Shown here: positions 8,422 through 28,714 of the stretch, in pieces | Layout of the letters: each line of letters begins with the position of its first letter | Numbering within the stretch: the first letter of the stretch is position 1 | DNA from: Azonexus hydrophilus | GTDB taxonomy: Bacteria > Pseudomonadota > Gammaproteobacteria > Burkholderiales > Rhodocyclaceae | Direction of reading: 5' to 3' | NCBI RefSeq assembly: GCF_905120355.1 | Contig: NZ_CAJHOB010000009.1 | Coordinates: 62,001 to 126,000, forward strand | Length of the DNA: 64,000 bases | Translations under genes and position numbers: made by a program | Notes under the pieces: generated by a model | Told to the model about the DNA's origin: nothing | Seen by the model: only the letters and a program-made list of their open reading frames with translations | Database searches by the model: none

Positions 8422-8495
8422 GGCGCGGTAGCAAAGCGGTTATGCACCGGATTGCAAATCCGAGTAGGTCGGTTCGACTCCGGCCCGCGCCTCCA
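8422..8495 (+). tRNA. tRNA-Cys (anticodon GCA), integration target
   Basis: 74 nt with encoded CCA. The acceptor stem GGCGCGG pairs with CCGCGCC. The anticodon loop TTGCAAA gives GCA. The 3' half from 8452 is repeated at the right end of the element (19619-19668), so the element integrated into this gene and its attachment sequence restored an intact 3' end. Confidence 0.96.
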
Positions 8496-8501
8496 AAAGT
8501 T
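8452..8501 (+). repeat. attL: 50-bp direct repeat (tRNA-Cys 3' half)
   Basis: Starts at TTGCAAATCC in the anticodon loop and ends at TCCAAAAGTT, 6 nt past the tRNA CCA. It matches 19619-19668 at all 50 positions. The crossover, typically in the anticodon loop for this kind of integrase, lies within it. Confidence 0.92.
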
Positions 8502-8570
8502 AGGTAGCACAAGGCTTGGCGGCCCTTTGGGACATTTTTTCAATCCGATGCGGAATTGAGGAGTGCCCAA

Positions 8571-9461
8571 GTGAAAATTACCTTCGAAACACCCAAAACA
8601 GTCGCTGAAATTGCCGCTGTTTTTCTGTCGTTCACTCCGGTGCGCGACCCCATGCTTAAATCCCGGTTGTCATTCTGGACAGACCGCTATGGCGACAAGC
8701 CGTTAGCCGATCTGTCTGCCGACGATGTCGACGCCGCCCTGGCCGAGCTGGAAACATCACCTGGCCCCAGCGGCAAGATGCTCAGCGGCCCGACAATCAA
8801 CCGCTACCGCATGGCCGCCCACAGCCTGCTGCGTTTCGCCCGTCAGAAACGCTTGCTGCCGCGCGGTTGGGTGTCACCCTTCGACCATATCCCCCAACAC
8901 AAGGAAAACCCCGGCAAGGTGCGATTCCTGACCCCGGACGAAGAACAGCGGCTGATGGACGCCGCCCGCGTGCAATCCTGGGTACTGCTGCCGCTACTGA
9001 TCCGCCTCGCCATCGTCACCGGCCTGCGCCGTGGCGCGCTGCTGGGTTTGACCTGGGGCGATGTAATTCTCGACGACAGCACGCCACACGTGCGGATCGA
9101 GCGCACCAAAAATGATGACCCGCACGTTTCACCACTTACCCCTGATCTGGTTCAAGAATTCAGACGCATGCGGCGCATCAAGGCCAAAGACTGTGACCTG
9201 ATATTCACCGGCAAACACCTGGACCGGCCACACGATTTCCGCCACGGCTTCATTGAAGCCTGCAAGCTGGCCGGCATCGAAGGCGTCACCTTCCACACCC
9301 TGCGCCACACCTCATGCAGCCGCTTGGCGCAAGCGGGTGTCGATATCCTGCAAATCGCCGAGCATGCCGGCCATCGTTCGCTATCCATGACGCGCCGATA
9401 TTCGCACCTGTGCGTCAAAGGCCGCGCCAATACCGTCAACGCCGTTTTTGCGGGGAGCTGA
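8571..9461 (+). CDS. int: Tyrosine-family site-specific integrase
   Basis: 296 residues. The GTG at 8571 was chosen because GAGGAG lies 8 nt upstream. A SAM-like core-binding domain (about 10-105) precedes the catalytic domain (about 115-290). Catalytic residues in view: R153 in TGLRRG, H242/R245 in HTLRH, H268 in HAGHRS and nucleophile Y277 in RRYSH. It is shorter than most phage integrases and lacks a clear N-terminal arm-binding domain. The gene lies 70 nt inside attL beside the intact tRNA-Cys, the usual place for the integrase of a tRNA-targeted element. Confidence 0.92.
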   Translation: MKITFETPKTVAEIAAVFLSFTPVRDPMLKSRLSFWTDRYGDKPLADLSADDVDAALAELETSPGPSGKMLSGPTINRYRMAAHSLLRFARQKRLLPRGWVSPFDHIPQHKENPGKVRFLTPDEEQRLMDAARVQSWVLLPLLIRLAIVTGLRRGALLGLTWGDVILDDSTPHVRIERTKNDDPHVSPLTPDLVQEFRRMRRIKAKDCDLIFTGKHLDRPHDFRHGFIEACKLAGIEGVTFHTLRHTSCSRLAQAGVDILQIAEHAGHRSLSMTRRYSHLCVKGRANTVNAVFAGS

Positions 9462-9463
9462 AC

Positions 9464-9613
9464 ATGAACCCCGCAAAACAAGCCATTAAGCTGCTGCGCA
9501 ACCAAATGACCACCGCAAACCTGCGGGCGTTGACCGAAGCAGAGCGACAACAGTTCATCGCCATCATTGCCCACTGGCTGAAACTGGCCGACCTTCCCAC
9601 AACTGGAGTTTGA
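9464..9613 (+). CDS. Small unknown protein (49 aa)
   Basis: The ATG at 9464 is preceded by GGGGAG 6 nt upstream and starts 2 nt after the integrase stop, so it is probably coupled to it. The 49 residues form one helical stretch with alternating charged and hydrophobic positions. I do not recognise the family. A helper of the integrase (excisionase-like) is possible from position alone. Confidence 0.5.
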   Translation: MNPAKQAIKLLRNQMTTANLRALTEAERQQFIAIIAHWLKLADLPTTGV

Positions 9614-9616
9614 GCC

Positions 9617-9976
9617 ATGAGCACCGACCAATCATTTGACCTCTCGAAAACCAATCCCATGATCGGCGAGATCACCTTAACCCACCTTGGACACAACATT
9701 GGCTGCAATACGGGTGAAATTTCGGTCGACTTGTGGGCTGAGGACGGAACGATTATCTACCTCGAACTTCCTGCCCTTCTCGAGAACATTGATCGGCTGC
9801 ACGGCAGGCATCACCGCCTACTCGGTATCAAGGAAAGATTGCTTGCCACCCTGTTTCTCGCCTACGAAAGCAACTTTCTGACGATGGCCGACCGGCAGAC
9901 ATTTGAGTCATATGTTCGCAACCATATTGCCAGCCTCAGCAGCATTGAAGCCGCGCGCCGCTTGGTGCTAGGCTGA
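9617..9976 (+). CDS. Unknown protein (119 aa) of the element
   Basis: Starts 3 nt after the previous stop and so continues the integrase transcript. The N-terminal half looks like beta strands (EISVDLWAEDGTIIYLELP) and the C-terminal half is helical. No motif is recognised. Base composition is lower in G+C than the flanking integrase and primase genes, consistent with recent acquisition. No function can be assigned. Confidence 0.6.
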   Translation: MSTDQSFDLSKTNPMIGEITLTHLGHNIGCNTGEISVDLWAEDGTIIYLELPALLENIDRLHGRHHRLLGIKERLLATLFLAYESNFLTMADRQTFESYVRNHIASLSSIEAARRLVLG

Positions 9977-9979
9977 CCC

Positions 9980-10011
9980 AGTACGCCACTCCCCAGCCCG
10001 GCCAGGCGAAA
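9980..10011 (+). repeat. 32-nt repeat, copy 1 (before higB)
   Basis: Matches 10703-10734 at 30 of 32 positions. The core is CCAGCCCGGCCAGGCGAAA here (CTAG... in copy 2). It contains CCCGGCCAG (9997-10005), which forms a 9-bp inverted repeat with CTGGCCGGG (10046-10054). Copies 1 and 2 bracket the higBA pair. Confidence 0.75.
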
Positions 10012-10092
10012 CACATCGCCGTGAGGTGCAGCACTCGTCCCCGTTCTGGCCGGGCAATTTGCAAACCGTAACGCTACGCTATACAATCCACC

Positions 10093-10371
10093 ATGATAAA
10101 AAGCTTTCAGCACAAAGGGCTGCAAGCCTTCTTCGAGACCGGCAGCAAGGCAGGTATCCAGCCGCATCATGCGGCCCGGTTGTCTCGCCAGCTGATCCGT
10201 CTTGATATGGCAAAAGCCCCCGAATACATGAACCTGCCCGGCTGGAAGTTTCACGGCCTGCAAGGCAACCTGGCCGGGCATTACTCAATCACGGTGAACG
10301 GAAACTGGCGTCTGACTTTCACCTTTGAAGATGGCGATGCCGTCCTGGTCGATTACCAGGACTATCACTGA
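10093..10371 (+). CDS. higB: HigB-type (RelE superfamily) toxin
   Basis: 92 residues, the usual HigB length. Family landmarks are [14 protein letters not shown] near the start, [12 protein letters not shown] in the middle and [12 protein letters not shown]...VDYQDYH at the end. HigB toxins cleave mRNA on the ribosome. It precedes its antitoxin gene by 10 nt, the order typical of higBA. The pair is bracketed by two 32-nt repeats and may stabilise the element against loss. Confidence 0.88.
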
Positions 10372-10381
10372 GAGGTTGCAA

Positions 10382-10693
10382 ATGAGCAGAATGTTCAACC
10401 CACCCCACCCCGGCGAAACGCTACGGGAAGATGTATTGCCTGCCCTGGGCCTGAGTGTGACCGAGGCTGCCGCGCAGCTGGGCGTCACCCGTGCTGCGCT
10501 CTCCCGCGTACTCAATGGCCGCGCTGCCATCTCCCCGACAATGGCCCTGCGCATCGAGGGCTGGCTAGGCGTGGAAAACGGCGGCAGCGCCGATGCCTGG
10601 CTGGGCCAGCAAACCGCCTATGACCTGTGGCAGGCCAGGGAAGCCGGATTGCCCACCGTTCAACGCGCCGCCGTGCAGCAGGTTTCAGCTTAG
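10382..10693 (+). CDS. higA: HigA-type antitoxin (XRE/HTH)
   Basis: 103 residues from the ATG at 10382 (GAGAGG about 6 nt upstream). It opens with the HigA signature [20 protein letters not shown] and continues with a Cro/C1-type [24 protein letters not shown] at about 25-45. HigA neutralises HigB and represses the operon. The 9-bp inverted repeat before higB (9997-10054) could be its operator (inference). Confidence 0.9.
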
Positions 10694-10702
10694 GCCGCAC
10701 CG

Positions 10703-10734
10703 AGTAAGCCACTCCCTAGCCCGGCCAGGCGAAA
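10703..10734 (+). repeat. 32-nt repeat, copy 2 (after higA)
   Basis: Second copy of the 9980-10011 repeat with two mismatches. Its left end, GCCACTCCC (10708-10716), also pairs with GGGAGTGGC (10755-10763) to form a hairpin-capable inverted repeat just before the next gene. Confidence 0.75.
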
Positions 10735-10795
10735 AGCGGATTCCTTCACCGCCTGGGAGTGGCACCTTTTGAGGGGCGTAGCGAAGGAAGGCCAA

Positions 10796-11335
10796 GTGAA
10801 AACGAAGAACGAGATCAAGGAAATTGTCGATAGAGGTGAAGCCGAGGCGTACATCAATGATTTCGTGGCGGCAATTTTCAAAGCTCAGTTAGAAGGGAGA
10901 CTCCCTGAACTTGATGTAGATACTGCTACCGTCGCCGCAGAGGTCTTGGCAAGACTCATGAAGACAGCAGCTTGCCGCAAGCTGTTGCATTTACCCAAGC
11001 GGAAAAATATCCAGTGGAACGCCAAAGATTACAGAATGGGCTCCCCTCAGTGGGAGGCGGCTAAGCGCCATTACAGGGGCGATACAACTTGTTCCGAAGC
11101 GGTAAAAGAGCTGTCTGATTCCTTTGGTGATCATCCGCCATCGGAAGCCAGAACACTTAAACGCTTGCTTGATGACTTGGTTGAAAGAGTGCACGCCTTT
11201 GATTCCGCGGTATATCAAACACTGATCAATTTAGGTGCCGATCCTGACAAGCCGGGTAGCCATGAATCCGCTGCCCGCCGCATGTTTAAAAACCTTACGG
11301 GCTCTGATTGGGACGAGGTGAACGGCCCGATGTGA
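10796..11335 (+). CDS. Unknown low-GC protein (179 aa)
   Basis: The GTG at 10796 follows AAGGAAGG at a good distance; the in-frame TTG at 10769 has none. The protein is mostly helical and charged, with no recognised motif. Its G+C content and codon use are clearly lower than those of the primase, helicase and terminase genes, which marks it as a separately acquired cargo gene. In satellites this position often holds anti-phage or accessory genes. That is a positional argument only; I cannot assign a function. Confidence 0.6.
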   Translation: MKTKNEIKEIVDRGEAEAYINDFVAAIFKAQLEGRLPELDVDTATVAAEVLARLMKTAACRKLLHLPKRKNIQWNAKDYRMGSPQWEAAKRHYRGDTTCSEAVKELSDSFGDHPPSEARTLKRLLDDLVERVHAFDSAVYQTLINLGADPDKPGSHESAARRMFKNLTGSDWDEVNGPM

Positions 11336-11446
11336 CGGGCCATGCAAAGTAAAAGTTGGCACTCTGCATTTTAGTAAAAAACTGATTTCCATATTCTCCA
11401 AAGCGTCCCAAGCCGCCAAGCCGGACGCTACTTAGGAGAATAGGAA

Positions 11447-11689
11447 ATGACAGACACCAAGCCACAAGATTTTTTACCACTGAAAACGTGGTTTCTCGAA
11501 CACGGTAAAGGCGTGTTCAAATCCGACAAGCTGCTGCACTACCACACCCGTCCGATTCAGCGCGAACTGATCGAGGCCGGCGCAATGGCAAAAGTCGGGG
11601 TGCATATTTTCCTGAACCGCACCCGATTCTGGCCGGAGTTTCAGCGCATCGCTGCCGCTAACCTGGATACCGGAGGCCGTGAAAAATGA
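11447..11689 (+). CDS. Small putative DNA-binding protein (80 aa)
   Basis: The ATG at 11447 has GGAGAA upstream. The pattern (LKTWFLEHGKG..., RELIEAGAM..., FLNRTRFWPEFQRI) resembles the small winged-helix proteins of phage control regions, including excisionase-like factors. The similarity is by eye only. It is first of three tiny genes that overlap by ATGA and lead into the replication genes. A control or excision role is plausible, not shown. Confidence 0.55.
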   Translation: MTDTKPQDFLPLKTWFLEHGKGVFKSDKLLHYHTRPIQRELIEAGAMAKVGVHIFLNRTRFWPEFQRIAAANLDTGGREK

Positions 11690-11922
11690 CCTCCAAAAAA
11701 AATGGCCGCACCAGACGGCACGACCAGAATCAGCGCAGCGATTATAACCCGAACACATACCCTCAAGCAGAAGCGTTCAGCCTCGCCAAGCCATCACGCA
11801 GCCGCCGCCAGAAGCGCGGCTGGCAACGTGGCGCACGAGGCTGGATTGATCCCGGCCTGCTCGCGGAAATGGCACTACTGGTGGTCGTCGTCGGCCTGTA
11901 TTTGGCCGGAGCATCCGCATGA
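11686..11922 (+). CDS. Small single-pass membrane protein (78 aa), very basic N-terminus
   Basis: Starts by ATGA overlap with the previous gene. Residues 1-50 are rich in Lys/Arg (TSKKNGRTRRHDQ, SRSRRQKRGWQRG) and residues about 57-76 form one hydrophobic segment (LLAEMALLVVVVGLYLAG). The basic side should stay in the cytoplasm. It fits no phage family I know. A membrane-anchored DNA- or RNA-binding peptide is one reading. Confidence 0.5.
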   Translation: MTSKKNGRTRRHDQNQRSDYNPNTYPQAEAFSLAKPSRSRRQKRGWQRGARGWIDPGLLAEMALLVVVVGLYLAGASA

Positions 11923-12185
11923 GCGCCACACCGATCCACGAGCTGTTCATCGGCACCCCAAACCACGAGTGCGCCAGCTGTCGCCGCGAATTCAACGCCA
12001 CCAACCCGCGTGCTGGCGATGTGCGCGTGCTTCCCTACCTTCCCGGTGTTCCTGTGGGTCACTTCCAATTCGCCTACGGCATTTGCGGGTGCTGCTTGCG
12101 CCAGGCGAAAGCGGATGAGGCTGGACGCACTGCTGTCATGGCTGCGGTAGGGCGATTCCACAATGGGACACCGACAAATGACTAG
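11919..12185 (+). CDS. Small zinc-binding-type protein (88 aa)
   Basis: ATGA overlap with the previous gene. Two cysteine pairs, ECASC near residue 18-21 and CGCC near 56-59, suggest one zinc site. Its 3' end overlaps the primase gene by 8 nt. No family is recognised. The tight coupling places it with the replication module. Confidence 0.55.
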   Translation: MSATPIHELFIGTPNHECASCRREFNATNPRAGDVRVLPYLPGVPVGHFQFAYGICGCCLRQAKADEAGRTAVMAAVGRFHNGTPTND

Positions 12186-13179
12186 CCTGATTCCATTCGA
12201 CGACATCCGCGCCGCCGCGCGCGGCCATTGGTCCGGCCTCCTCGAAATCATTGTCGGCGAGCAATACCTGACCGGCCGTAACGGGCCATGCCCCGGCTGC
12301 GGCGGGTCTGACCGCTTTCAGTTCAATGTCCGCAGCCCGGCCGGCGCGTTTTCCTGCCGCGCCCATCCAAAGGGCGGAGGCGATGGATTCGAGCTTATCG
12401 AGCATGCGCTTGACATTGGGTTTGCCGAGGCTGCGCGGCTGGTGGCAGGGGCGCTTGGCATGAACGCCGCCACCTCAAACCGGCCAGCACAGCGCCCGCC
12501 CACACCCGCTCCGGTCCCGGCGGCAGACTGGTCACGCGCCCGCCGCCAGGCCGCAGAGATGTGGAGCGCCGCCCACCAGATTTCATCTAATGATGCCGCT
12601 GGCTACTACCTGGCTGGGCGTGGCCCAGCCCTACCAGCCGACAGCGCCAATCTGCGCCACCACCCGGCACTGCCCTACTGGAAGCCTGGCGACGGCCGCG
12701 CCGAGCTGGTCGGCAACTTCCCGGCACTGCTGGCACGGATCAGCCTACCAGACGGGCGCGGCTGCGGCCTGCATCGCATTTACCTGACACCAGACGGCCG
12801 CAAACTCGCGCTTGATGGCCTACCCGCCAAAAAACTGTTCAAGGCCGGAGACCTAGCCGGTGCTGCCGTGCAACTGGCGCGGCCGGTTGATGGCGTGGTC
12901 GGCATCTGCGAAGGCATTGAAACCGCGCTGGCGTTTGGTATGGGCGCCGGCATTCCCGTATGGGCTGGCGTTTCCGCGCCTGGACTGGCGGCGGCCGCTT
13001 TTCCGCCTGATGTACGGATAGTGCACATCGGTGCCGATCCAGACGAACCCGGCCAACGCGCCGCCCTAGCCCTGGCGCAGCGTCTAGCCGATGAAGGACG
13101 GCAAGCGTGGATACATACCCCACCAGGCACAGGTGACTGGAATGACTGGCTGCTCGAATCGAGAGGGATGGCCGCATGA
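12178..13179 (+). CDS. Phage-type primase: zinc ribbon plus TOPRIM domain
   Basis: 333 residues from the ATG at 12178, which overlaps the preceding TAG; the ATG at 12163 is an alternative. A zinc ribbon at 38-63 (C38, C41, C60, H63) starts CPGCGGSDRF as in P4-alpha and T7-type primases. A TOPRIM domain of about 100 residues follows near the C-terminus, with the Glu in CEGIETA and the Asp pair in GADPDEPG. It lacks a helicase domain, which is encoded by the next gene (ATGA overlap). Together they likely start replication of the element. Confidence 0.85.
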   Translation: MTSLIPFDDIRAAARGHWSGLLEIIVGEQYLTGRNGPCPGCGGSDRFQFNVRSPAGAFSCRAHPKGGGDGFELIEHALDIGFAEAARLVAGALGMNAATSNRPAQRPPTPAPVPAADWSRARRQAAEMWSAAHQISSNDAAGYYLAGRGPALPADSANLRHHPALPYWKPGDGRAELVGNFPALLARISLPDGRGCGLHRIYLTPDGRKLALDGLPAKKLFKAGDLAGAAVQLARPVDGVVGICEGIETALAFGMGAGIPVWAGVSAPGLAAAAFPPDVRIVHIGADPDEPGQRAALALAQRLADEGRQAWIHTPPGTGDWNDWLLESRGMAA

Positions 13180-14810
13180 ACGAATCGCACCTCATTGACC
13201 TATCAACCGGCAAAGCGGTCAGCAAACGTACCAAGACCACCTCTGCCGCCACCCATGCCGGCGAACTGTTCGATGCCCAAGGGCGGCGCATTATCCGCCA
13301 CCAGCCAAGCCAGCTGCCGGAAATCCTGGATGCGCTCGAAGTCGCACTGAGTGAATCCGGAACGCTCAATCTTTTCCGCTACGCCGGCCGCCTGGCACGG
13401 GTTTATCAGGCCGACGAAAGCGCCGACAAGAACATCAAACGCCCGGCCGGCGCCATCATGCTGCACCCGGTTGAGTCCGCGCACCTTGCCGAGATTGCCA
13501 CCCGTGCAGCAGCGCATGAAAAGTGGGACGCCCGCCGTTCAGACTTCGTGCCTATCGATTGCCCTCGCCGCGTGGCCGATGCCTACCTGGCGCGTGGCCA
13601 TTGGCCACGGTTGCCCGATCTGCTTGGGTTTATCGAGACGCCGACCATCACAGCGACTGGCCGAGTTATCGACGCGCCCGGTTACGACCAGGATAGCGGC
13701 CTGTTTTGTGCCTTCCGCAAAATCCCCGGCTATCAACGCCCGACCAAAAAACCGAGCAGAAATGATGCGGAACGTGCAGTCATCCGGTTGCTTGAACTGT
13801 TCAAGACATTCCCGTTTGTGGCTGACGAGGATCGTGTCGCCATGCTGGCCGGCGTGCTGACCGCCATTCAGCGACGCTTGCTCCCCGCTGCACCCATGCT
13901 TGCGATTAGCGCCCCGAGTCCCGGCACCGGCAAAACGCTGCTGTGTGAAAGCCTGGCGGAAGTCGCCACGGGCCGACGTGCTTCCGTCCTGAGCCTGGGC
14001 CATGACGATGCCGAAACCGAGAAGCGCCTGGCCGGCGCATTCATGGCCGGCGATGCCTGCCTGATGATTGATAACGTCGAACGTCCGCTGGGCGGTGATC
14101 TGATCTGCCAGGCGCTGACTCAGGAATATTTGCGGCTGCGCCCGCTGGGTGGCTCCGGCATGCTGAATGTACCAACCCATTCCATCATGATCGCCACGGG
14201 CAACAACCTGAGCATAGTCGGTGATCTGAAACGGCGCGTGGTACTGGTTCGTCTCGACGCCCGTGTGGAGCGGCCGGAACATCGCACGTTTGACCGCGAC
14301 CATCTATCTACCGTGCTTGAACGCCGTGGCGAGATCATCACCGACGCCATGACCATCATCGCCGCCTATCTGGCCGCCGGATCGCCAGCGATACCTGGCC
14401 TGCACAGTTTCGGTGGCTTCGAGAAGTGGGACGCGATGGTACGCCGGCCGCTGGCCTGGCTGGGCCTTGCTGATCCGTTGCTGTCATCCGATGAACTGCG
14501 TGCAGCCGATCCGGACGTTGAGTGCATGCGCCTGCTGTTCGCCGCCTGGCGGGATGAATTCGGCACCCGGCCTGTGACCGCCGCCGAAGTCGTTTCCTCC
14601 TCCACCTCCGTCGGTCAGAGCGCCAACGATGACCTGCGCGATGCCCTGCAACAGGCCTGTGCTGAAAAACCTAATACACGGCGATTGGGAAGCTGGCTTC
14701 GACGGCACCGAGACAAGATTCTCGACGGGTTTCAACTCAAACAAACCGGCTTTGATGGGAAAAAGAAGGTGGCCCGTTGGCAGGTTATTGATGGCGGGGT
14801 CAGCGGGTAA
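13176..14810 (+). CDS. AAA+/P-loop replicative helicase-like ATPase
   Basis: 544 residues. Walker A is APSPGTGKT at 246-254, Walker B CLMIDN at 295-300, and the sensor-1-like stretch is SIMIATGNN. The first 230 residues lack a known motif. This architecture is common in phage and island proteins encoded next to a TOPRIM primase and is taken as the replicative helicase or origin-opening protein. Overlaps the primase gene by ATGA. Its last codons run into a set of GGTCAGCGGG repeats that may be its binding sites (inference). Confidence 0.78.
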   Translation: MNESHLIDLSTGKAVSKRTKTTSAATHAGELFDAQGRRIIRHQPSQLPEILDALEVALSESGTLNLFRYAGRLARVYQADESADKNIKRPAGAIMLHPVESAHLAEIATRAAAHEKWDARRSDFVPIDCPRRVADAYLARGHWPRLPDLLGFIETPTITATGRVIDAPGYDQDSGLFCAFRKIPGYQRPTKKPSRNDAERAVIRLLELFKTFPFVADEDRVAMLAGVLTAIQRRLLPAAPMLAISAPSPGTGKTLLCESLAEVATGRRASVLSLGHDDAETEKRLAGAFMAGDACLMIDNVERPLGGDLICQALTQEYLRLRPLGGSGMLNVPTHSIMIATGNNLSIVGDLKRRVVLVRLDARVERPEHRTFDRDHLSTVLERRGEIITDAMTIIAAYLAAGSPAIPGLHSFGGFEKWDAMVRRPLAWLGLADPLLSSDELRAADPDVECMRLLFAAWRDEFGTRPVTAAEVVSSSTSVGQSANDDLRDALQQACAEKPNTRRLGSWLRRHRDKILDGFQLKQTGFDGKKKVARWQVIDGGVSG

Positions 14811-14936
14811 AGCGGGGTCAGTTTCTACCTAACGTGAAAAAGTGTCAGTAAGTGACAAAAAACATATATGGGCGGAAATCAACCCCGCTGACCCCGCAAA
14901 CCCCGCTTTTCCAAATGCTGGCGAGCGGTCAGCGGG
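14798..14936. repeat. GGTCAGCGGG repeat cluster, candidate origin or operator
   Basis: Three perfect copies of GGTCAGCGGG: 14798-14807 (+), 14884-14893 (-) and 14927-14936 (+), plus a partial GGGGTCAG at 14814-14821 and CCCCGC runs between them. They span the end of the helicase gene and the 221-nt gap before the terminase genes. The iteron-like spacing and mixed orientation suit an origin bound by the element's replication protein, or an operator controlling the packaging genes. Neither is shown. Confidence 0.5.
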
Positions 14937-14989
14937 TCCTTCCAAGTGCCTAGACAGTACGGGGACAGGGACGCGCCCACCCTCCCTAG

Positions 14990-15018
14990 TTGCGAACTAT
15001 TCTCAACGGGGTTATATA
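14990..15018 (+). promoter_or_regulatory. Promoter of the terminase genes
   Basis: TTGCGA, 17 nt, TATATA. The expected start is about 7 nt before the small-terminase ATG at 15032, so the message would be almost leaderless; accordingly no Shine-Dalgarno sequence is visible. It lies just after the GGTCAGCGGG repeats, which could regulate it. Confidence 0.55.
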
Positions 15019-15031
15019 TTAACGGTGCTAT

Positions 15032-15538
15032 ATGATTGATTTACAAGCAAAAATAACGCAAAGCGAATTCGGGAATCTGGTCGGCGTCAGTCAGCCCGCC
15101 GTGTCCGACATGCTAGCCCGCAAGGTCATTGCACCAGGCGGCACCGCCGGGGAGTGGCTGCTGTCGTACTGCAACCACCTGCGAGAAACTGCTGCCGGTC
15201 GAGCGGCGCAGGGTGATCTTGATCTGGCCGGCGAGCGTGCCAGGCTTGCGAAAGAGCAAGCCGACCGCGTAGCGATGCAGAACGCCGTCCAGCGCGGCGA
15301 GCTGGCACCTGTTGCGGCGCTGGAGAGCGTTTTATCAGCCACCGGTGCGCGGGTGGGGCGGCTGCTTGATGCGCTGCCTGGGCAGATTGCTCGCCGCGCG
15401 CCTGATCTACCAGCCGATGCGCTGACGTTGATCGAGCACGATATCGCGTCCTGTCGCAACCTTGCCGCAGAAATGCGCCTTGCCGACCTGAGCGATGCTG
15501 ACGACGCACCCGACGACGACGCAGAGGTGCTGGAATGA
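15032..15538 (+). CDS. Terminase small subunit-like DNA-packaging protein
   Basis: 168 residues. An N-terminal HTH at about 8-30 (ITQSEFGNLVGVSQPAVSDML) is followed by a helical middle with the AGERARLAKEQADRVAMQNA pattern found in Nu1/gp3-like small terminases, then an acidic tail. Small terminases recognise the packaging site (cos or pac) and load the large subunit. It overlaps the large-subunit gene by ATGA. The start lacks a ribosome binding site and is supported by the promoter spacing and HTH integrity. Confidence 0.8.
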   Translation: MIDLQAKITQSEFGNLVGVSQPAVSDMLARKVIAPGGTAGEWLLSYCNHLRETAAGRAAQGDLDLAGERARLAKEQADRVAMQNAVQRGELAPVAALESVLSATGARVGRLLDALPGQIARRAPDLPADALTLIEHDIASCRNLAAEMRLADLSDADDAPDDDAEVLE

Positions 15539-17625
15539 CCCACTTCGAGGCGTTCGACTCTCACCTACAGATTTCACAGGCGCTAGAGCGCGGCCTGCGC
15601 ACTTGGGGCAAACCACCACCGGTCAGCCTGGATGAATGGGCGCGGCAAAACTTCCACCTGTCGTCCGAATCTTCCTACATCGAACAGGCATGGAATCCGT
15701 GGCCGTTCCAGCGCGGCATCATGCACGCCCTGTCACGCGACGACATCGCAGAAGTGACAATAAAAAAATCAGCGCGGGTGGGTTATACAAAAATGCTGCT
15801 CTCGTTCCTGCTTTACGCAGCGCACCATCGGCGGCGCAATCAGGCGATTTGGCTTCCCAGCGATGGCGACCAGAAAAAATTTGTCAAAACCGAGCTAGAG
15901 CCAGCCCTGCGCGATGTCTCTGCAATGAAAGAAGTCATGCCGAGTCGCGGCATGGGACGCCACCGCGACAACACACTGACGCAGAAAAAATTTGCTGGCT
16001 GTTTGCTGCACATCCTGGGCGGCGGATCGGCGAAAAACTACCGGGCAATCAGCGTTGATATCGGCGTTTTCGACGAACTGTCAGCATTCGAGCAGGATAT
16101 CGAGGGCGAAGGCAGCCCGTTTTCGCTGGGTGCCAAGCGCGTTGCCGGCGCAACCTTTCCAAAACTCGTGACTGGCAGCACGCCCAAGGCGCGCGGCTGG
16201 TGTCATCTTGATGCGCGTTATCAGGCAGCTGACGAGCGCATGAATTATCAAATCTCCTGCCCGCACTGCGCCGGCCACCACGCGCTGGCCTGGGGCGGAC
16301 CGGACGAGCCGCACGGCTTCAAATTTGACCGCACCACCCGCGCACCGGACAGCGTGCGCCACCTGTGTCCGCACTGCGCCGGTCTGATCGACCAAGCAGA
16401 TTATCTGGCCGCCGCTGATGCCGGCGTCTGGATCAACCAGGCCGGCGACCTCTGGCTACACGCCGACGGCCGCTTTACGCGCCCTGATGGATCACCCACA
16501 TCCCCGCCGAGGCATCTGGCGTTCCACGTCTGGGCAGCTTATTCACCAGCTGTTTCCTGGCCGCAGCTGGTGCGCGAGTTCTTCGCGGCTCATGAAAAAA
16601 TCGAAACCGGCGACGCATCGATGATGAAGGCGTTTGTCAACACCACCCTGGGCGAGACCTGGCAGGACGAAATCGAACGGACAGACGCCGACGAGCTACG
16701 CCTGCGCGCAGAGCCGTTTGCGCTGCGCCACATGCCGCGCGGCTGCTTGCTGCTGCTCTGTGGTGTCGACGTACAGGGTAACCGCCTGGAAGCGCAGGTG
16801 TGGGGCATCGGGCGCGGCGGAGAAATGTGGTCGATAGACCACCGCGTATTTTTTGGCAATCCTGGGCAGCCTGACGTGTGGCACGAGCTAGAGCAGTTTT
16901 TGCTTGAGGAAAAGTACACGCACGCCTGCGGCACAGAACATGGGATACACGCCACGGCAATTGACAGCGGCGGCCATCATACCGATATGGTGTATGCCTT
17001 CGCTCATACCCACCGTGCCCGCCGCGTGCATGCCGTTAAAGGATCGAGCGGCACAGAGCGCGGCATCGAAAACGGAAACTCAAAAGTCGGCTTCAATTTT
17101 CGCGGCAAACGAGAACGCAACGGACCGACGCTGTGGCTGGTCGGAACGAATCTCGCAAAAGATCGCCTGGCAAGCCGGCTTGAAGTCACCACGCCTGGAC
17201 CCGGCTATATCCACTTGTCAAACGAAAACAGCGACGAGTGGTTTCGACAGATGGCCGCCGAGGATCGCGTCACGGTGCGTGGCCGGCATGGGAATCAGAC
17301 GCGCTGGGTGCCAAACCGCAAACGCAACGAAGTGCTCGACATGACTGCCTACTGCCTTTGGCTGGAAGAGCGTCTAAACCTGTGGGCACCGAAAAACCGC
17401 AAGTGGTGGGACGACCTCGAAGCAAAGGTCGAGCCGCCGCCAGACCTGTTCAGTGCCAATCCGCCGCCACAGGCCGCTAAGCCAGCCCCTGCACCGCCAC
17501 CCGACAACCCTGCCGACAACCCTGCCGACAACCCTGCCGATGACGCTGCCGACAACCCTGCCGATGACGCTGCCGATGACGCTGCCGTTGCCGACGACGA
17601 CATTTTCCGGCCGATCCTGCTATGA
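15535..17625 (+). CDS. Terminase large subunit, lambda gpA type (Terminase_GpA)
   Basis: 696 residues, slightly longer than lambda gpA. The deviant Walker A KSARVGYTK (78-86) is the form seen in lambda gpA, and the Walker B/catalytic Glu are VFDE near 178-181. Two CPHC zinc-knuckle-like pairs lie between the ATPase and nuclease domains. Nuclease aspartates are in CGVDVQGNRLEAQVWG and AIDSGGHH. The tail (about 657-690) is seven 4-residue repeats (DNPA/DDAA). gpA enzymes cut cos ends and pump DNA into procapsids through a portal, but no portal gene follows, which is why a helper phage is suspected. Confidence 0.9.
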   Translation: MTHFEAFDSHLQISQALERGLRTWGKPPPVSLDEWARQNFHLSSESSYIEQAWNPWPFQRGIMHALSRDDIAEVTIKKSARVGYTKMLLSFLLYAAHHRRRNQAIWLPSDGDQKKFVKTELEPALRDVSAMKEVMPSRGMGRHRDNTLTQKKFAGCLLHILGGGSAKNYRAISVDIGVFDELSAFEQDIEGEGSPFSLGAKRVAGATFPKLVTGSTPKARGWCHLDARYQAADERMNYQISCPHCAGHHALAWGGPDEPHGFKFDRTTRAPDSVRHLCPHCAGLIDQADYLAAADAGVWINQAGDLWLHADGRFTRPDGSPTSPPRHLAFHVWAAYSPAVSWPQLVREFFAAHEKIETGDASMMKAFVNTTLGETWQDEIERTDADELRLRAEPFALRHMPRGCLLLLCGVDVQGNRLEAQVWGIGRGGEMWSIDHRVFFGNPGQPDVWHELEQFLLEEKYTHACGTEHGIHATAIDSGGHHTDMVYAFAHTHRARRVHAVKGSSGTERGIENGNSKVGFNFRGKRERNGPTLWLVGTNLAKDRLASRLEVTTPGPGYIHLSNENSDEWFRQMAAEDRVTVRGRHGNQTRWVPNRKRNEVLDMTAYCLWLEERLNLWAPKNRKWWDDLEAKVEPPPDLFSANPPPQAAKPAPAPPPDNPADNPADNPADDAADNPADDAADDAAVADDDIFRPILL
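17503..17586 (+). repeat. Seven 12-nt tandem units inside the large-terminase gene
   Basis: 84 nt made of 12-nt units encoding DNPA or DDAA in the order N,N,N,D,N,D,D. Units are in frame, so copy-number change by slippage would lengthen or shorten the acidic tail without breaking the gene. In lambda gpA the C-terminus contacts the portal, so the tail may affect which helper procapsid is used (inference). Confidence 0.85.
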
Positions 17626-18026
17626 AGCCGGTCGAAGCACGCGAAACGCTCGAAAAAATCGCAAAACTTCTAGCCAGCGGCCAGGGTCTGCCGCCAGCGG
17701 AGCGGTCATGGCTAGTCGGCAGCCTGATTACCCGGCTACGCCAGCCGGGCAGCGACCTGGAGCGCCTGCTAGGACTGCGTAGCAGGGCAGGTGGGCGGCT
17801 ACATGCCCACACACCGCTTCCGGCCCGCGATGCGGCGGTGCGCAAGACTTGCGCCACCCTGCCGGGGACCAATAAAGAGCGCGCCCGAAATCTGCTGCGC
17901 CGCCTGCAAGCCAACGACCCTGAGCTGCTCGAAATCGAGCGCAAAACAGCTCGCCTGCCTCGCAGTGTGCGGCAACTTGAACGCATCATTGCCGGCCGTA
18001 CTGTGGCAGCGACGTTTAATAACTGA
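17622..18026 (+). CDS. Unknown protein (134 aa) after the large terminase
   Basis: ATGA overlap with the terminase gene. Basic and helical, with ARETLEKIAKLLASGQGLPPAERSWL at the start and RKTARLPRSVRQLERII near the end. In lambda-like phages this position holds the head-tail joining protein gpW and then the portal, but this protein is neither. No family is recognised. It may act with the terminase. Confidence 0.6.
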   Translation: MKPVEARETLEKIAKLLASGQGLPPAERSWLVGSLITRLRQPGSDLERLLGLRSRAGGRLHAHTPLPARDAAVRKTCATLPGTNKERARNLLRRLQANDPELLEIERKTARLPRSVRQLERIIAGRTVAATFNN

Positions 18027-18096
18027 TTGAAATGTCATCCGTGGGAAGTGACAGAAAATGCTCACATCGCCATAACACCACGGAGCCGCCCTACCC

Positions 18097-18336
18097 ATGA
18101 AAGTCACCTGCGTTCAAAGCAAGCCGGAAACACAAGGCGCAGTCATGTTCGACCGATCCAAGTCTATTTTGTTGATCTGGTTCGACAACACGACGATTCA
18201 CGCAAGACTGACGCCAGATCAGCGCGAAGCACTGGCCGCCGCCATGAGCCCCACCAAATCCGAAGAACACAATGAGCTGGTGAGCTGCGCCACCAGCTTC
18301 CACCATTGCAAGACGGAGACCAACCATGACAAATAA
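18097..18336 (+). CDS. Unknown small protein (79 aa)
   Basis: The ATG at 18097 is preceded by GGAG about 13 nt away; the ATG at 18145 is an alternative. Contains SILLIWFDNTTIHARLTPDQREALAAAM. No family is recognised. Its 3' end overlaps the next gene by 11 nt, which supports translation of both. Confidence 0.5.
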   Translation: MKVTCVQSKPETQGAVMFDRSKSILLIWFDNTTIHARLTPDQREALAAAMSPTKSEEHNELVSCATSFHHCKTETNHDK

Positions 18337-19255
18337 ATTAAACATCAAGCAAAACGCCCTTGCCGACACTGCCGAACTGGAAACCGCCCGCCAGACCATG
18401 CCGGCCGAAGCCACCAGCACGGCAAAAGAAGCCTTGGCATCGGCGCCCAGCGACTTCGCCGCGCAAGCCCTGACGCCGGGCCTTGGTCATACCGCCGAAA
18501 GTATCACTGCCCCCATTGCAGCCATAGAAAAAGCAGTAGCCAACTTAGCCGATCAACAAAAGAAACTGCGCGAAACGCTCAAATCGAACATGGCAAGCTT
18601 GAATGACATGATTGAGCAAAAATCCGCCGAACTGAACAAGCTGATCATGAGCGTTTCGATTGATGACGCGACCAAGCTGCTGATGAATCAGTTGCGGGAT
18701 GATATTGAGCGCCATCAAGCTAGCGAGCTTATCCGCTCAAATATCCTGGCGGCTCGAAAAGTCACAAACTTTGGGGCGGTTGAAACAATGGGCGGTTTCG
18801 ATGGCGCCGGCAATTTGACCTTCTCGCAAAGCATCGCCAGCCCGATCCACCTCGTCGAATACGATAGCGGTGTTTTTACTCTGCTGGCGTTGTGCCCCGA
18901 TCTGTTCTACCCGGCGATTGAAGCCAATATCCGCCATATCCTGAAGGATGCCGGCGTTCCTGAAAACAGCCCAGGCACCGATGAACTTCTGAACCAGGCT
19001 CGCGCCCTATCTGCCGAGATTCAGACGCTGGAAGCGCAGCGCCGGGAATTCCGGGACCAGTTCGCCATGACTGCGCTGGAAGACATGCCGAAAGGCTACC
19101 AGGAGTTTTTGACGCGCACCAATGGCGGCACCTTCTCGCCAAGAACAGAACCGAGCGTCACGCGTGCCGACGGGCGGCAAATGGAATTCGGGCATTCGCG
19201 ACTCGAGTCCCTGAAACTTTCCCAAGATCATGTCGAAAAGGAAAACACCTACTGA
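18326..19255 (+). CDS. Unknown coiled-coil protein (309 aa), last gene of the element
   Basis: Residues about 65-150 form a long helix with heptad-like spacing (IEKAVANLADQQKKLRETL, MIEQKSAELNKLIM), followed by a mixed domain and a second short coiled coil near 235-260. There is no signal peptide or TM segment. No family is recognised. It occupies the late position where satellites keep genes that remodel or capture helper particles, but nothing in the sequence shows such a role. Confidence 0.6.
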   Translation: MTNKLNIKQNALADTAELETARQTMPAEATSTAKEALASAPSDFAAQALTPGLGHTAESITAPIAAIEKAVANLADQQKKLRETLKSNMASLNDMIEQKSAELNKLIMSVSIDDATKLLMNQLRDDIERHQASELIRSNILAARKVTNFGAVETMGGFDGAGNLTFSQSIASPIHLVEYDSGVFTLLALCPDLFYPAIEANIRHILKDAGVPENSPGTDELLNQARALSAEIQTLEAQRREFRDQFAMTALEDMPKGYQEFLTRTNGGTFSPRTEPSVTRADGRQMEFGHSRLESLKLSQDHVEKENTY

Positions 19256-19256
19256 A

Positions 19257-19508
19257 AAGCCAGAGGCAAGGTGTAGTTCCAGAAAAACCCAGCCGATAGC
19301 CGAGACGCGGTGAGCCATAGGCGGCTGGTGGGGATTCCGCGGTGGAATCTCTGTATGGCGAGCCAACCAGCTTGTAGAGCTAACCTGGCGGTTGCGTAAA
19401 TCTCAACAAGCACGGCGGAGGATGGTCGATTTTACGGAGTCGCGACCTTCGCCACACCTCAACGACAGGAGCAACACCCAAGCCCGCCGAGTGCGGGTTT
19501 TTTTGTGG
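19257..19508 (+). ncRNA. Candidate structured noncoding RNA at the right end of the element
   Basis: No coding character. Stems I can draw: closing 19269-19274/19454-19459; 19324-19329/19366-19371 enclosing an 8-bp hairpin 19331-19338/19344-19351; 19391-19394/19404-19407; 19414-19417/19450-19453 enclosing 19424-19428/19443-19447. A rho-independent terminator follows directly. It could be a separate RNA or a structured 3' untranslated region of the 309-aa gene. I cannot match it to a known RNA family. Folding and covariation are untested. Confidence 0.5.
19481..19507 (+). terminator. Rho-independent terminator of the element
   Basis: AGCCCGC, loop CGAGT, GCGGG, then a run of seven T. It ends rightward transcription of the element before attR, so the host tRNA-Gly beyond needs the promoter at 19553. 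Confidence 0.85.
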
Positions 19509-19552
19509 GTGACTTGGCGCGAAAAAACGCCGGATTATTGATCCGGATAGTA

Positions 19553-19581
19553 TTGACTCGTCCCATGTGATCCCATAGAAT
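19553..19581 (+). promoter_or_regulatory. Outward promoter of the element facing attR and tRNA-Gly
   Basis: TTGACT, 17 nt, TAGAAT: one mismatch in each hexamer and ideal spacing. It lies inside the element, after its terminator and 38 nt before attR, and points at the truncated tRNA-Cys and tRNA-Gly copy 2. A small hairpin (CCGGAT/ATCCGG, 19530-19546) precedes it. Confidence 0.7.
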
Positions 19582-19618
19582 GCCGGCTGTCCCAAGGGGC
19601 GCAAGGGTTTCAGAAGGT

Positions 19619-19662
19619 TTGCAAATCCGAGTAGGTCGGTTCGACTCCGGCCCGCGCCTCCA
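19619..19662 (+). pseudogene. Truncated tRNA-Cys (3' half only)
   Basis: Carries the anticodon loop, variable region, T-arm, 3' acceptor strand and CCA of tRNA-Cys but no 5' half. The upstream sequence cannot rebuild the D-arm or a full acceptor stem, so it should not yield a working tRNA. Confidence 0.85.
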
Positions 19663-19668
19663 AAAGTT
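19619..19668 (+). repeat. attR: 50-bp direct repeat
   Basis: Perfect copy of 8452-8501. It marks the right end of the element. Host sequence resumes 2 nt before tRNA-Gly copy 2, so the pre-insertion spacing between tRNA-Cys and tRNA-Gly was 8 nt. Confidence 0.92.
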
Positions 19669-22375: not shown

Positions 22376-25129
22376 TCAGCGCTCCTGTTTCTTCAGCAGC
22401 AGAATGGCGACACCGAGAATCAGCGGCACCGACGCCAGCATGCACCAGAACGCCCCGCTCAGATCGACCAGCGACAGCCCCTTGCTGAATATCCCGCGAC
22501 TGATGATGATCATGTAGGTGGCCGGGTACACCTCGCCGATCAGCCGCCCGCCACCTTCGAGCGAAGACACCGGGTTGATCAACCCGGAAAACTGGATGGC
22601 CGGCAGGATAGTGCCGACCATGGCAATGAACAGCGCTGCAATCTGGCTTTTGGTCACAGCCGACGCCAGCAGCCCCATGCCAGTGGACACGAACGCGAAG
22701 ATCAGCGCCGCCAGGCACAGGGACAGGAAATCGCCGCTTATCGGCACCCCGAATACCGTCACCGCCAGCAGGCTCATCAACAGGAAATTCAGCAGGGTCA
22801 GGCCGACATAAGGCAACTGCTTGCCAAAGAGGAATTCGCTGCGGCTGACCGGGGTGACGTAGAGATTGATGATTGCGCCTGTTTCCTTCTCGCGCACCAC
22901 CGCCAGCGCCGTCAGCATGGCCGGCAGCAGCAGGAGCAGCAGCGGCACCACCGCCGGCACCATGGCCGGCAAGCTGCGGACATCCGGGTTGTAGCGGAAG
23001 CGGGTCTGGATCGTGGCCCCCTTCGCCTGCACGCCGAGCCGCTCGCTCAATTGCCCCGCCAGCCAGTGCTGATGCATGCCCTGCACGTACCCCTGGACGG
23101 TTTCCGCCCGCACCGGCATGGCCCCATCGACCCAGGCGCCGATCTCCACCTGCCGCCCAGCCAGGGCTTGGCGCATGAAACCGGGAGGAATCTCGATGGC
23201 AAGCGACAACTCCCCGCTGCGCATGCGCCGGTCGAGTTCGTCGTAATCGGCAAGCGGCGGCTGTTCGATGAAATAGCGCGAGCCCGACAATTGCAGCGCG
23301 TAGTCGCGGCTGAGCGTCGTCTGGTCGCGGTCGAGCACGGCGTAACGCAGGTTCTCGACATCCATGTTGATGCCGAAGCCGATCACGAACAACAGCAGGA
23401 TCGAGCCCCCCAGCGCGAGCGTGGCGCGGATCGGGTCGCGCTGCAACTCCAGCGCCTCCCGCCACAGGTAGGCCAGCATGCGCTGCAGGCTGAAACCTGC
23501 CCTTGCCCCGCCAGCAGCCTGCGCCGTCGGTTCTGCCACCGCCTCCGGCACGGCCGCGCCCTCCTTTTCTGGCGTGACCGGCGGCACGCCATCGGCCTCA
23601 CGCAGATAGCCGATGAAGGCTTCTTCCAGATTCCGCGCACCGCGTCTGGCCACCAGCTGGGCCGGCGTATCGCTGTCGAGCACCTTGCCGGCATGCATCA
23701 TCGACATGCGGTCACAGCGCTCGGCCTCGTTCATGAAATGGGTGGAAATGAAAATGGTCACCTTGTCACGCCGCGACAATTCCACCAGCAGACGCCAGAA
23801 AGCATCGCGCGCCACCGGATCCACCCCTGACGTGGGCTCGTCGAGAATCAGCATCTCGGGTTTGTGCACCATCGCCACGGCCAGCGACAGGCGCTGGCGC
23901 AGGCCCAGCGGCAGGCTTTCCGGGAGGCTGTCGAGCACCTCCGCCAGACCGAAGCGCGCCACCATTTCATCCATCCGGGCGGGAATGTCCGCCGCCGGCA
24001 CGTTGAACAACTGGGCATGCAGCAGCAGGTTCTGCCGCACGGTCAATTCGCCATAGAGCGAAAACGCCTGCGACATGTAGCCGACACGGCGACGGGTCGC
24101 GATGTCGCGTGGATCGACCTCGTGGCCGAACAGCCAAGCCCGCCCCTCGCTGGCTGGCAGCAAGCCGGTCAGCAGCTTCATCGTGGTGGTCTTGCCACAG
24201 CCGTTGGACCCGAGAAAGCCAAAAATCTCGCCGCGCCGGATGCGGAAGCTGACCTGGTCGACCGCGACGAAATCACCGAAACGCATGGTCAGCCCCTGCG
24301 CCTCGATGGCGATGTCGTCCTGATCCACCTGCAAAGGGGGAATCACCACCGCTGAGTGACCGCGCGTCCTCGCCGCCGGCAGCAGTCCAATGAAAGCCGC
24401 TTCCAGCGTCTCGCTCCCAGTACGGTCGAGCAGTTCCTGTGGGGTTCCGGTGGCCAGGATCTGGCCGGCATCCATCGCCAGCAGCCAGTCGAAACGCTGC
24501 GCCTCGTCCATATAGGCGGTCGCTACCAGCACGCTCATGCCCGGGCGTCGGCTGCGGATACGCGCGATCAGTTCCCAGAACTGGGCGCGTGCCAGCGGAT
24601 CGACGCCGGTGGTCGGCTCATCGAGAATCAGCAGGTCCGGATCGTGGATCAAAGCGCAGCACAAGCCGAGCTTCTGCTTCATGCCGCCGGACAATTTCCC
24701 GGCCGGTCGCGTCAAAAAAGGATACAGGCCGGTCGCCCGGGTCAGATCGTCGATGCGGCGGCGACGTTCAGCCGCATCATGACCGAACAGGCGGGCAAAG
24801 AACTGCAGGTTTTCCTCGACCGACAAGGTGGGGTACAGATTCCTGCCCAGACCTTGCGGCATGTAGGCAATGCGCGGACAGGCGCTGGCACGGTGCGGGC
24901 GTTGCGCCATGTCGCCGCCCAGCACCTCCACCGTCCCTTCCTGAATCTGACGGGCGCCGGCAATCAGTGCCAGCAGGCTGGATTTGCCGACACCATCCGG
25001 ACCAATCAGCCCGACCATGCAGCCGGCAGGAATCTCCTGGCTGATACCCGCCAGTGCCTCGATCTGGCCATAGCGCAGCCGCACCGCGTGCAGACGCACG
25101 ACCGCCGACGGCATGGGCGGCAGCGTCAT
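22376..25129 (-). CDS. Fused ABC exporter: two ATPase domains plus ABC-2 permease (RbbA/YhiH-like)
   Basis: 917 residues. The first ATPase has Walker A at 43-50 (GPDGVGKS), signature LSGGM and Walker [14 protein letters not shown]. The second has Walker A at 307-314 (GSNGCGKT), a degenerate signature LPLGLRQR and Walker [14 protein letters not shown]. The membrane half (about 575-917) has one TM, a large periplasmic domain and a bundle of five. This matches E. coli RbbA/YhiH, described as ribosome-associated. In this operon an export role is more likely. It lies 3 nt after the HlyD gene. Confidence 0.87.
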
Positions 25130-25132
25130 CGC

Positions 25133-26230: not shown

Positions 26231-26240
26231 AGCGATTACC

Positions 26241-27722: not shown

Positions 27723-27812
27723 GGGCAGCAGGCCTGGCAGGGGCTATCAGCGAATCACGGCCCAATGATACACCGTCAGGCGCGTTTCTGCTTATGGCCC
27801 GGCATCTCCGCC

Positions 27813-28244
27813 CTACATCACCCCGATCAATTTCACTTCGAAACGGATCGCCTTGCCGGCCAGCGGGTGATTGAAATCGAACAGTGCGCTGGTGTCGTTC
27901 AATTCGCGCAGAAAGCCGGAAAAAGCAGCGCCGGTGGGGGCGGTGAATTCGACGATGGAATTTTCCTTGAGCTCCATCCCCGCCGGCAGGGCATTGCGGG
28001 CAATGCGCTCGACCAGGCGCGGGTTGGGCTGACCAAAGGCCTGCTCCGGCTCCAGCTCGAAGACATAGTGACCGCCCTGCTCCAGGCCCAGCAGCACCTC
28101 CTCCAGCGATTCCGCCAGCTGGCCGCTGCCCATCTGCAGGGTCGCCGGGCTCATGTCGAAGGTGGACAGAAACTCCTCGCCGGCCAGGGTGGAAATGCGG
28201 TAATGCAGGGTGAGGAAGCTGTCGGCTTGCACGCTGGCCGTCAT
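27813..28244 (-). CDS. FKBP-type peptidyl-prolyl isomerase (SlpA-like)
   Basis: 143 residues from the ATG at 28244, which overlaps the lspA stop (ATGA) and follows AAGAAGG. The FKBP domain contains a SlyD/SlpA-type insert (LEPEQAFGQPNPRLVERI at about 62-79). It catalyses proline isomerisation and acts as a chaperone. The ileS-lspA-slpA order is standard in proteobacteria. There is no His-rich tail, unlike SlyD. Confidence 0.85.
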   Translation of the reverse strand: MTASVQADSFLTLHYRISTLAGEEFLSTFDMSPATLQMGSGQLAESLEEVLLGLEQGGHYVFELEPEQAFGQPNPRLVERIARNALPAGMELKENSIVEFTAPTGAAFSGFLRELNDTSALFDFNHPLAGKAIRFEVKLIGVM

Positions 28245-28714
28245 GGGGAATCCTTCTTGTGAGTGAATGAGGCAAAAATGAGCAGGGCCGCGCCGAGGCA
28301 GATGGCCGAATCGGCGACATTGAACGCCGGCCAGTAGTAGCCGGCAGCATGCCACTGGACGAAATCGACCACGGCACCGAAGCGCACGCGATCAATGACA
28401 TTGCCGAGGGCACCGCCCATGACCAGGGTCAGCGCCAGGGACAGCAGTTTCTGCTCAGGGTGTTTACGCAATTCCAGCGCAATCCAGGCCGCTACGGCCA
28501 ACGCCAGAAGCGTGAAGAACCAGCGCTGCCAGCCCGGCTGATCAGCCAGCAGGCTGAATGCCGCCCCCGGATTGAAGGTCAGCACCCAGTTCCAGAAGGG
28601 CGCGAAATAGATCACCTCGCCCGGCATGATGCTCGCCAGCGCCAGCCACTTGCTCAATTGATCGAGCACGATCACCAGCGCTGCAAGCGCGTACCAGTGG
28701 CCGGGTTTAGGCAT
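28241..28714 (-). CDS. lspA: Lipoprotein signal peptidase (SPase II)
   Basis: 157 residues, four TM segments. Catalytic aspartates are in [15 protein letters not shown] and FNVADSAI. It removes signal peptides from prolipoproteins after lipidation. The ATG at 28714 overlaps the end of ileS by 8 nt; the longer frame from 28738 lies wholly inside ileS. Confidence 0.94.

Follow-up and report, generated by a model that had tools for sequence, protein, structure and literature searches.

The window described here is a stretch of 64,000 nucleotides (nt) of Azonexus hydrophilus DNA (contig NZ_CAJHOB010000009.1, positions 62,001 to 126,000), and all positions are counted from its first letter. It contains an 11.2-kb element that is seated in a tRNA-Cys gene and bounded by attachment (att) repeats (Table 1). 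The repeats derive from the 3' part of tRNA-Cys and are exact over 50 nt, extending to 53 nt with one mismatch from 8449/19616. In nine of 12 other genomes of the genus the site is empty, with tRNA-Cys followed by tRNA-Gly within about 10 nt, without an insert (one of the remaining three gave tRNA-Gly matches only and two gave no match). Because tRNA-Gly adjoins tRNA-Cys at the empty sites, the second tRNA-Gly of the window, at 19671, is host sequence. Elsewhere in the window no further phage gene is apparent among the called genes of more than 180 aa, judged by eye from their first residues.

Table 1. Features of the tRNA-Cys element, in window coordinates
Feature	Position	Strand	Basis or remark
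tRNA-Cys (gca)	8422..8495	+	integration target, 3' part = attL; ARAGORN
attL	8452..8501		50 nt, identical to attR
Tyrosine integrase	8571..9461	+	PF00589; 296 aa from GTG, 301 aa from upstream TTG
119-aa ORF	9617..9976	+	matches no family searched, including Pfam, PHROGs, NCBIfam
HigB-type toxin of toxin-antitoxin pair	10093..10371	+	PF05015; 88% to L074
HigA-type antitoxin (HTH_3)	10382..10693	+	PF01381; 89% to L074
ORF common to siblings L075 and L085	10769..11335	+	37 and 39%; sequence comparison
80-aa ORF	11447..11689	+	present also in L075, L080 (72%), L218 (66%)
88-aa ORF	11919..12185	+	42% to L080
Primase	12178..13179	+	zinc ribbon (below cut-off), DUF7146, Toprim_3; Pfam; PHROG 510
Replicative helicase-like ATPase (putative name)	13176..14810	+	PHROG 29234; family hallmark
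Putative replication origin	14794..14906		inverted repeat arms 14794-14815 / 14885-14906 around AT-rich stretch
Lambda-type cos candidate	14934..14989	+	cosQ-like block, cosN-like region, CTAG at conserved spacing
Terminase small subunit, Nu1 type (TerS)	15032..15538	+	PF07471; PHROG 57
Terminase large subunit, gpA type (TerL)	15535..17625	+	PF05876 (GpA_ATPase), PF20454 (GpA_nuclease); repetitive acidic C-terminal tail
134-aa ORF	17622..18026	+	weak profile match to ~140-aa proteins after sibling TerS
79-aa ORF	18097..18336	+	unassigned
309-aa ORF	18326..19255	+	unassigned
attR	19619..19668		50 nt, identical to attL

A replicon with a packaging motor

The preliminary description of this DNA, made from its letters, had placed an integrase, a primase, a helicase and both terminase subunits between att repeats in tRNA-Cys, and the repeats, ARAGORN and searches of Pfam and PHROGs confirm this arrangement. 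The frames are intact and tightly overlapping, as had also been described: the overlaps of primase with helicase, of terS with terL, and of terL with the next open reading frame (ORF) are 4 nt each. Of the element ORFs, 18 were scanned by Pfam, 10 by PHROGs and 10 by NCBIfam. Terminase aside, these scans gave no match to capsid, portal, tail or lysis families, so the stated lack of recognized particle and lysis genes stands. The only other virion-type match is a weak one (E 0.007), of TerS to PHROG 23005, 'virion structural protein'. The element thus has its own replication genes and is integrative, without a full set of virion genes, as is general for a phage satellite.

The match of the primase to PF08273 reaches 22.0 bits, below the cut-off of 23. 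The helicase-like ATPase matches PHROG 29234 at 403 bits; because that family is annotated as of unknown function, and Pfam AAA is matched only below cut-off, the name 'helicase' is provisional. At the stop of this gene lies the putative origin, an inverted repeat with 22-nt arms in which 17 of 22 positions are paired; 15 shuffles reach at most 14.

Of 117 columns nearly invariant among 63 relatives, TerL retains 111; the other rows keep a mean fraction of 0.99, and 0.89 at the lowest. It is 67% identical to the TerL of locus L131, 65% to L132, 53% to L062 and 52% to L064, all of which sit in lambda-like prophages, and TerS is 65% identical to that of L131. Close relatives of TerL lie mostly within such prophages, and a local profile finds a portal in 74 of 93 TerL loci, L132 included. 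In L062, L064 and L131 the terminase is followed by a portal gene, and L062 and L064 also have protease-capsid genes. In a 69-row quick tree, the TerL of the window is sister to L131 (SH-aLRT 86) within a group with L132 at support 100. With TerL alone, tblastn found no relative in the genome contigs; the viral contigs gave one short 37% match. The protein ends unlike the prophage proteins, and tandem 12-nt repeats at 17489-17596, near its C-terminus, code for DNPA/DDAA. Since the C-terminus of lambda TerL docks on the procapsid, helper specificity may lie in this tail.

The cos candidate is placed between the putative origin and terS, and consists of a cosQ-like block, GGGTCCTTCC, followed by CTAG 42 nt on. 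The strict pattern GGGTCCTTCC-N36-46-CTAG has a single match in the window, 98 nt upstream of terS, and none in 100 shuffles. Of the 63 portal-bearing TerL loci, 35 have a like arrangement upstream of terS, and phage lambda imm21 has one spanning its ends (GGGTCCTTTC, with CTAT 44 nt on). TerS-TerL would presumably cleave at the cosN-like region within the candidate.

Relatives with differing virion genes

An alignment of four helicases led to 34 loci in genome contigs. The close family comprises 19 of these, at 51-69% identity to the helicase-like ATPase of the window (L074-L092, in which L089 and L091 correspond to L022 and L021), together with three IMG/VR contigs (L108-L110), whose identity is 55-59%. 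By record titles the family is betaproteobacterial (Rhodocyclaceae, Thiobacillus, Gallionella, Sulfuricella and Methylotenera, with some given only as Proteobacteria or Gammaproteobacteria). The palindromic repeat at the end of the helicase exceeds all 15 of its own shuffles in 20 of 22 loci, window included; its arms vary between elements yet still match each other. It is not above shuffles in L108, where it is expanded, and in L080, a locus interrupted after the helicase. A DNA scan of the viral contigs for the origin core gave no match. Of the traits that define the family, the window element has the PHROG 29234-type helicase with the palindromic repeat at its stop; for a further one, a cos-like block downstream of the helicase, it has a candidate. 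In L080, which has the closest helicase (69%), long opposite-strand genes directly follow the helicase and look like a transposon insertion.

The genes of these siblings were called with a simple codon-usage caller and then clustered (L092, whose helicase was uncalled, was left out). Downstream of the helicase, 15 of 21 loci have a gene from one of two TerS-like clusters, often followed by a protein of about 140 aa; PHROG 57 was matched in five of 50 sibling ORFs. The 134-aa ORF that follows terL in the window aligns with these ~140-aa proteins at an hhalign E of 0.001, but with a probability of 21%. Beyond the TerS-like gene, virion genes vary from element to element. L074 has a gpE-type capsid and a ClpP protease, L075 and L086 have HK97 protease-capsid fusions, L108 has a ClpP-capsid fusion, L078 and L081 have capsids, L076 and L087 a capsid and a tape measure, L077 a minor tail protein, and L090 a baseplate hub and a neck protein. 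By clustering only, L079, L082, L088 and L109 have capsid or protease parts, and L083, L089 and L110 neck or minor-tail proteins. Proteins of the TerL-phage loci match 11 of 15 sibling virion proteins, at best 29-53%, and the other four (the L076 capsid, the L090 hub, the L089 neck protein and that of L083) have no match at E 1e-5; the sibling parts are therefore old or come from other phages.

Ten siblings, of 7.8-14.2 kb, have repeats at both ends (only 17 nt in L086 and 20 nt in L089, beside rather than inside a tRNA). From these, 50 of 127 called ORFs were scanned, chiefly those of more than about 90 aa beyond the helicase. Pfam, with 25 families, gave seven capsid matches (five PF05065, one PF03864 and one PF25209), two to minor-tail-Z, one to a baseplate protein and one to Nu1; within these 50 ORFs it gave no portal and no TerL. 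PHROGs gave neither portal nor TerL among the first 25 of 73 families listed. In siblings not bounded by repeats, tblastn found no gpA-type TerL, and no unexplained ORF of TerL size stands just after the helicase on the same strand, although several contigs end there.

A cos regex looser than the strict pattern matches 10 of 22 family loci (window included), with a single hit per locus that always lies beyond the helicase and on its strand; it has no match in L152, a terminase-carrying contig described below. With a matrix built from the prophage sites, nine of 22 sibling loci score higher than any of 20 shuffles (a null built from the window), and in 13 of 22 the top match is no more than about 1 kb downstream of the helicase. 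As read from these genes and repeats, the family is one of elements with an integrase and a helicase, the latter mostly accompanied by a primase-like gene, with a palindromic origin-like repeat and, downstream, one or two apparently exchangeable virion parts; its members often carry a cos-like block and a TerS-like gene.

Two relatives occupy the same site. L075 and L218 are both seated in tRNA-Cys between the same tRNA genes as the window element, and their integrases are 77 and 81% identical to its own (that of L080 is 79% identical). L075, from an uncultured Rhodocyclaceae, is 10.2 kb long; besides a 63% identical helicase it encodes a protease-capsid fusion and a TerS-like protein. L218, from the genus of the window, is 7.8 kb long; it has no helicase, and its virion genes code for a capsid protein and a tape measure. 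In place of these virion genes, the window element carries TerS and TerL. For the integrase, no match at 60% or more was found among 1920 plasmid records, and an alignment search of viral contigs gave only two distant ones (24 and 32%). Beside the tRNA-Cys element of L218, behind tRNA-Leu, lies a further integrase-led stretch (L218:3-10767) with a helicase-like gene, recognized by eye, and two large proteins of unassigned kind, of 439 aa and at least 1104 aa (cut at the end of the locus).

These relatives bear on whether the element is simply an ordinary lambda-like prophage that has lost its head, tail and lysis genes. Its TerL and TerS are closest to prophage proteins (67% and 65% to L131), and the long branch of TerL would suit such a loss. 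The preliminary description had named full phages at this site as the finding that would point to a deletion derivative; neither of the two relatives found is a full phage, and both have the same integrase type without a phage late region. The helicase is common to 22 other loci with differing virion genes, the frames are intact, and the family-specific repeat directly precedes cos-terS. On these grounds the deletion derivative is rejected as very unlikely. Satellite status is well supported by the same-site relatives, the Pfam scans of the siblings and L152, so that the element is most likely an integrative phage satellite rather than a decayed prophage.

L152 is one of 19 TerL loci in which the local profile recognized no portal, and the only one accepted as portal-less. 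Of the others, 13 have less than 4.7 kb beyond terL, gene calling was poor in L186 and L203 and took the wrong strand in L136, and L197 and L199 are phage-like, with a capsid and further phage genes. These last two contigs have TerS, TerL and a ClpP-capsid fusion, and no portal was recognized between terminase and protease. L152 itself, from IMG/VR, spans about 17.5 kb; tRNA-Glu supplies its flanking repeats, each of about 46 nt, which start at 96 and 17621. Its Nu1 TerS is 59% and its gpA TerL 53% identical to those of the window, and its other genes include an integrase, a VapE-type primase/helicase, an HNH match below cut-off, Mor, DUF6441 and a KAP NTPase. A 169-aa protein can be aligned with the ~140-aa proteins, the rows sharing 23-29% identity. 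Pfam found no portal or capsid family in the 10 of 18 called ORFs scanned; the other eight are of at most 169 aa, and no gene was called in a stretch of about 2 kb that precedes 15.4 kb. The matrix gives L152 a score of -2.7 at its second-best site, 102 nt upstream of terS, a site that the matrix alone does not support.

The TerL of L152 groups apart from that of the window, and the starred branches of the tree force two changes, with the long window branch as a caution; its replicon is also unlike that of the window element. Because of its place in the tree and its different replicon, the motor-without-head layout was probably assembled twice, unless heads were lost twice. The proposal that a complete packaging motor defines a separate satellite layout does not extend to the family as a whole: among its 23 helicase loci TerL was seen in the window element only, and what the siblings have is parts of capsid, tail or baseplate.

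Like the cos candidate and the putative origin, one gene pair of the element is an addition to the preliminary description, HigBA at 10093-10693. Its proteins are 88-89% identical to those of L074:5768-6373, an element in tRNA-His, which suggests a recent exchange between the tRNA-Cys and tRNA-His elements. No usable PADLOC match to defence cargo was obtained with nine window ORFs (12-16 bits only). The 309-aa ORF has no match across the other 299 sampled genomes of the order, and a structure prediction for its product was set aside (single-sequence model, mean pLDDT 51.7).

Proposed packaging with borrowed heads

Taken together, the element reads as a satellite whose own terminase would cut its own cos and package its DNA into the procapsids of a lambda-like helper, a reading to which we assign a probability of roughly 0.6. 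A TerS-TerL motor working on a borrowed procapsid and portal is the most likely mechanism. Upon induction of the helper phage, the integrase would excise a circle at the tRNA-Cys att site, and primase and helicase would copy the element from the origin at the helicase stop. TerS-TerL would then cut cos just upstream of terS, dock on the foreign portal, and pump the DNA into lambda-like procapsids. The presumed helper would also supply tail and lysis.

Several observations weigh against this reading. TerL lies on a long branch (0.64, compared with 0.25 for the sister row), and the tree program flagged its placement as unsure. The strict cos pattern was composed post hoc, after the site had been seen. 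The cosN-like core departs from the prophage consensus, and for this reason the prophage-site matrix, although it ranks 14934 first in the 64 kb, gives it a score of -3.1, below the mean shuffled best of 2.7. L218 has no cos by regex or matrix, and the window is the only one of the 23 close helicase-family loci in which TerL is seen. Finally, no helper prophage was found in the genome: the one TerL family searched, gpA, gave no other member at E 0.001, and the two portal families sought, Phage_portal_2 and Phage_portal, gave no match. The long branch could reflect adaptation or loosening, and the deviant cosN core might be accounted for if the element's own terminase had a cos private to it.

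That the siblings carry one or a few isolated parts unable to build a particle also suits a different role, in which the terminase, like their lone capsid, tape-measure or baseplate genes, would mainly interfere with an infecting phage, as a foreign component that poisons its assembly or packaging or competes with it, and so protect the host, while the terminase of the helper packages the element at cos. L108, which has TerS, a capsid fusion and a prophage-like cos but no TerL, fits this role, as does the match of an L152 protein to a PADLOC candidate defence protein. We consider it unlikely, since TerS, TerL and the cos candidate are kept together in prophage order, both terminase domains are matched and nearly all of the near-invariant columns are kept. 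Moreover, a capsid protein without a portal could equally be a size-setting part.

The genome contains a second small element, at tRNA-His (L222:2652-10472; G000:C13, about 24,650-32,470), with 18-nt repeats and a length of 7.8 kb. It has an integrase, a TOPRIM-type primase (58% to L090), a second helicase type and an HK97-type capsid protein, and no terminase or other virion gene was noticed in it. The two satellites might complement each other, with the window element giving TerS-TerL, the second element the capsid protein, and a helper the portal, tail and lysis. The C13 stretch gave no cos-like pattern, and this arrangement is the least probable of those considered. A separate locus, L026 (G000:C7:48001-68000), combines an integrase with regulators and a helicase relative of 956 aa; behind these come large proteins that match PHROG head protein/endolysin and virion structural families and by eye resemble podovirus ejection proteins. 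A 15-nt search found no repeat there.

More broadly, the siblings suggest a 'one-part' class of satellites that share a replicon (integrase, primase/helicase, palindromic origin, cos and TerS-like gene) and a slot for virion genes, through which each member would swap one or two parts (motor, capsid, tape measure, baseplate or neck) into helper assembly, with the motor version arising at least two times. We give this generalization an even chance; it draws on the genes of ten att-bounded siblings and two motor-carrying cases. In the portions of the literature covered, satellites take nearly all virion parts from a helper or bring a whole head module. Elements with just one or two such parts imply that components of phage assembly are exchangeable singly, and the same-site siblings, with like integrases, one site and different parts, offer a direct comparison of what each part does to packaging and to helper yield. 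The layout may escape satellite detectors keyed to known gene sets.

Comparison with known satellites

Satellites that have TerL and no head genes, or whose only virion gene is one for a capsid or a tape measure, were not met among the titles and abstract openings of a literature search that lay outside the VEIME, tycheposon and capsid-forming island papers. A shared replicon with one or two exchangeable virion parts seems to be a new layout, though a prior description is possible.

Phage-inducible chromosomal islands (PICIs), both proteobacterial and staphylococcal, are likewise small att-bounded islands with integrase and replication genes. They rely on the TerL of the helper, since TerS or a TerS-binding protein is described for them, and an AlpA-type regulator is a classical trait. 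In PICIs, as far as the part of the source covered goes, TerS or cos recognition redirects helper packaging (PMC10690885). The window element differs from the classical PICI in its own gpA-type TerL and in having no AlpA match among the 18 ORFs scanned at E 0.05. Capsid-forming PICIs (cf-PICIs) are described, in the same partial source, as encoding capsid protein, protease, portal, connectors and terminase and needing a helper for tails only (PMC10690885). They share with the window element their own TerS and TerL, and differ from it in that no portal, capsid, protease or connector is recognized there by Pfam or PHROGs. They differ also from the ten att-bounded siblings, seven of which have a capsid protein, with no portal or TerL found in the ORFs scanned.

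The passages covered describe P4 as relying on the terminase of P2 and on the Sid scaffold (PMC10690885, PMC4936722). P4-like satellites share with the window element an integrase and own replication genes and, by its candidate cos, putatively also cos-based packaging; the element differs by its own terminase, and neither Sid nor Psu is matched in the 18 ORFs scanned. MulchRoom and MiniFlayer, satellites of Streptomyces phages, have portal, capsid and scaffold and are without evident replication genes in the part of the source consulted (PMC10690885). They too have their own TerS and TerL, and the window element is their reverse, with replication genes present and portal, capsid and scaffold unrecognized. 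The lambda-like prophages with a gpA terminase (L062, L064, L131 and L132) share with it the TerS-TerL block and a cos-like block before terS; prophages of this type are possible donors of its motor or relatives of its helper.

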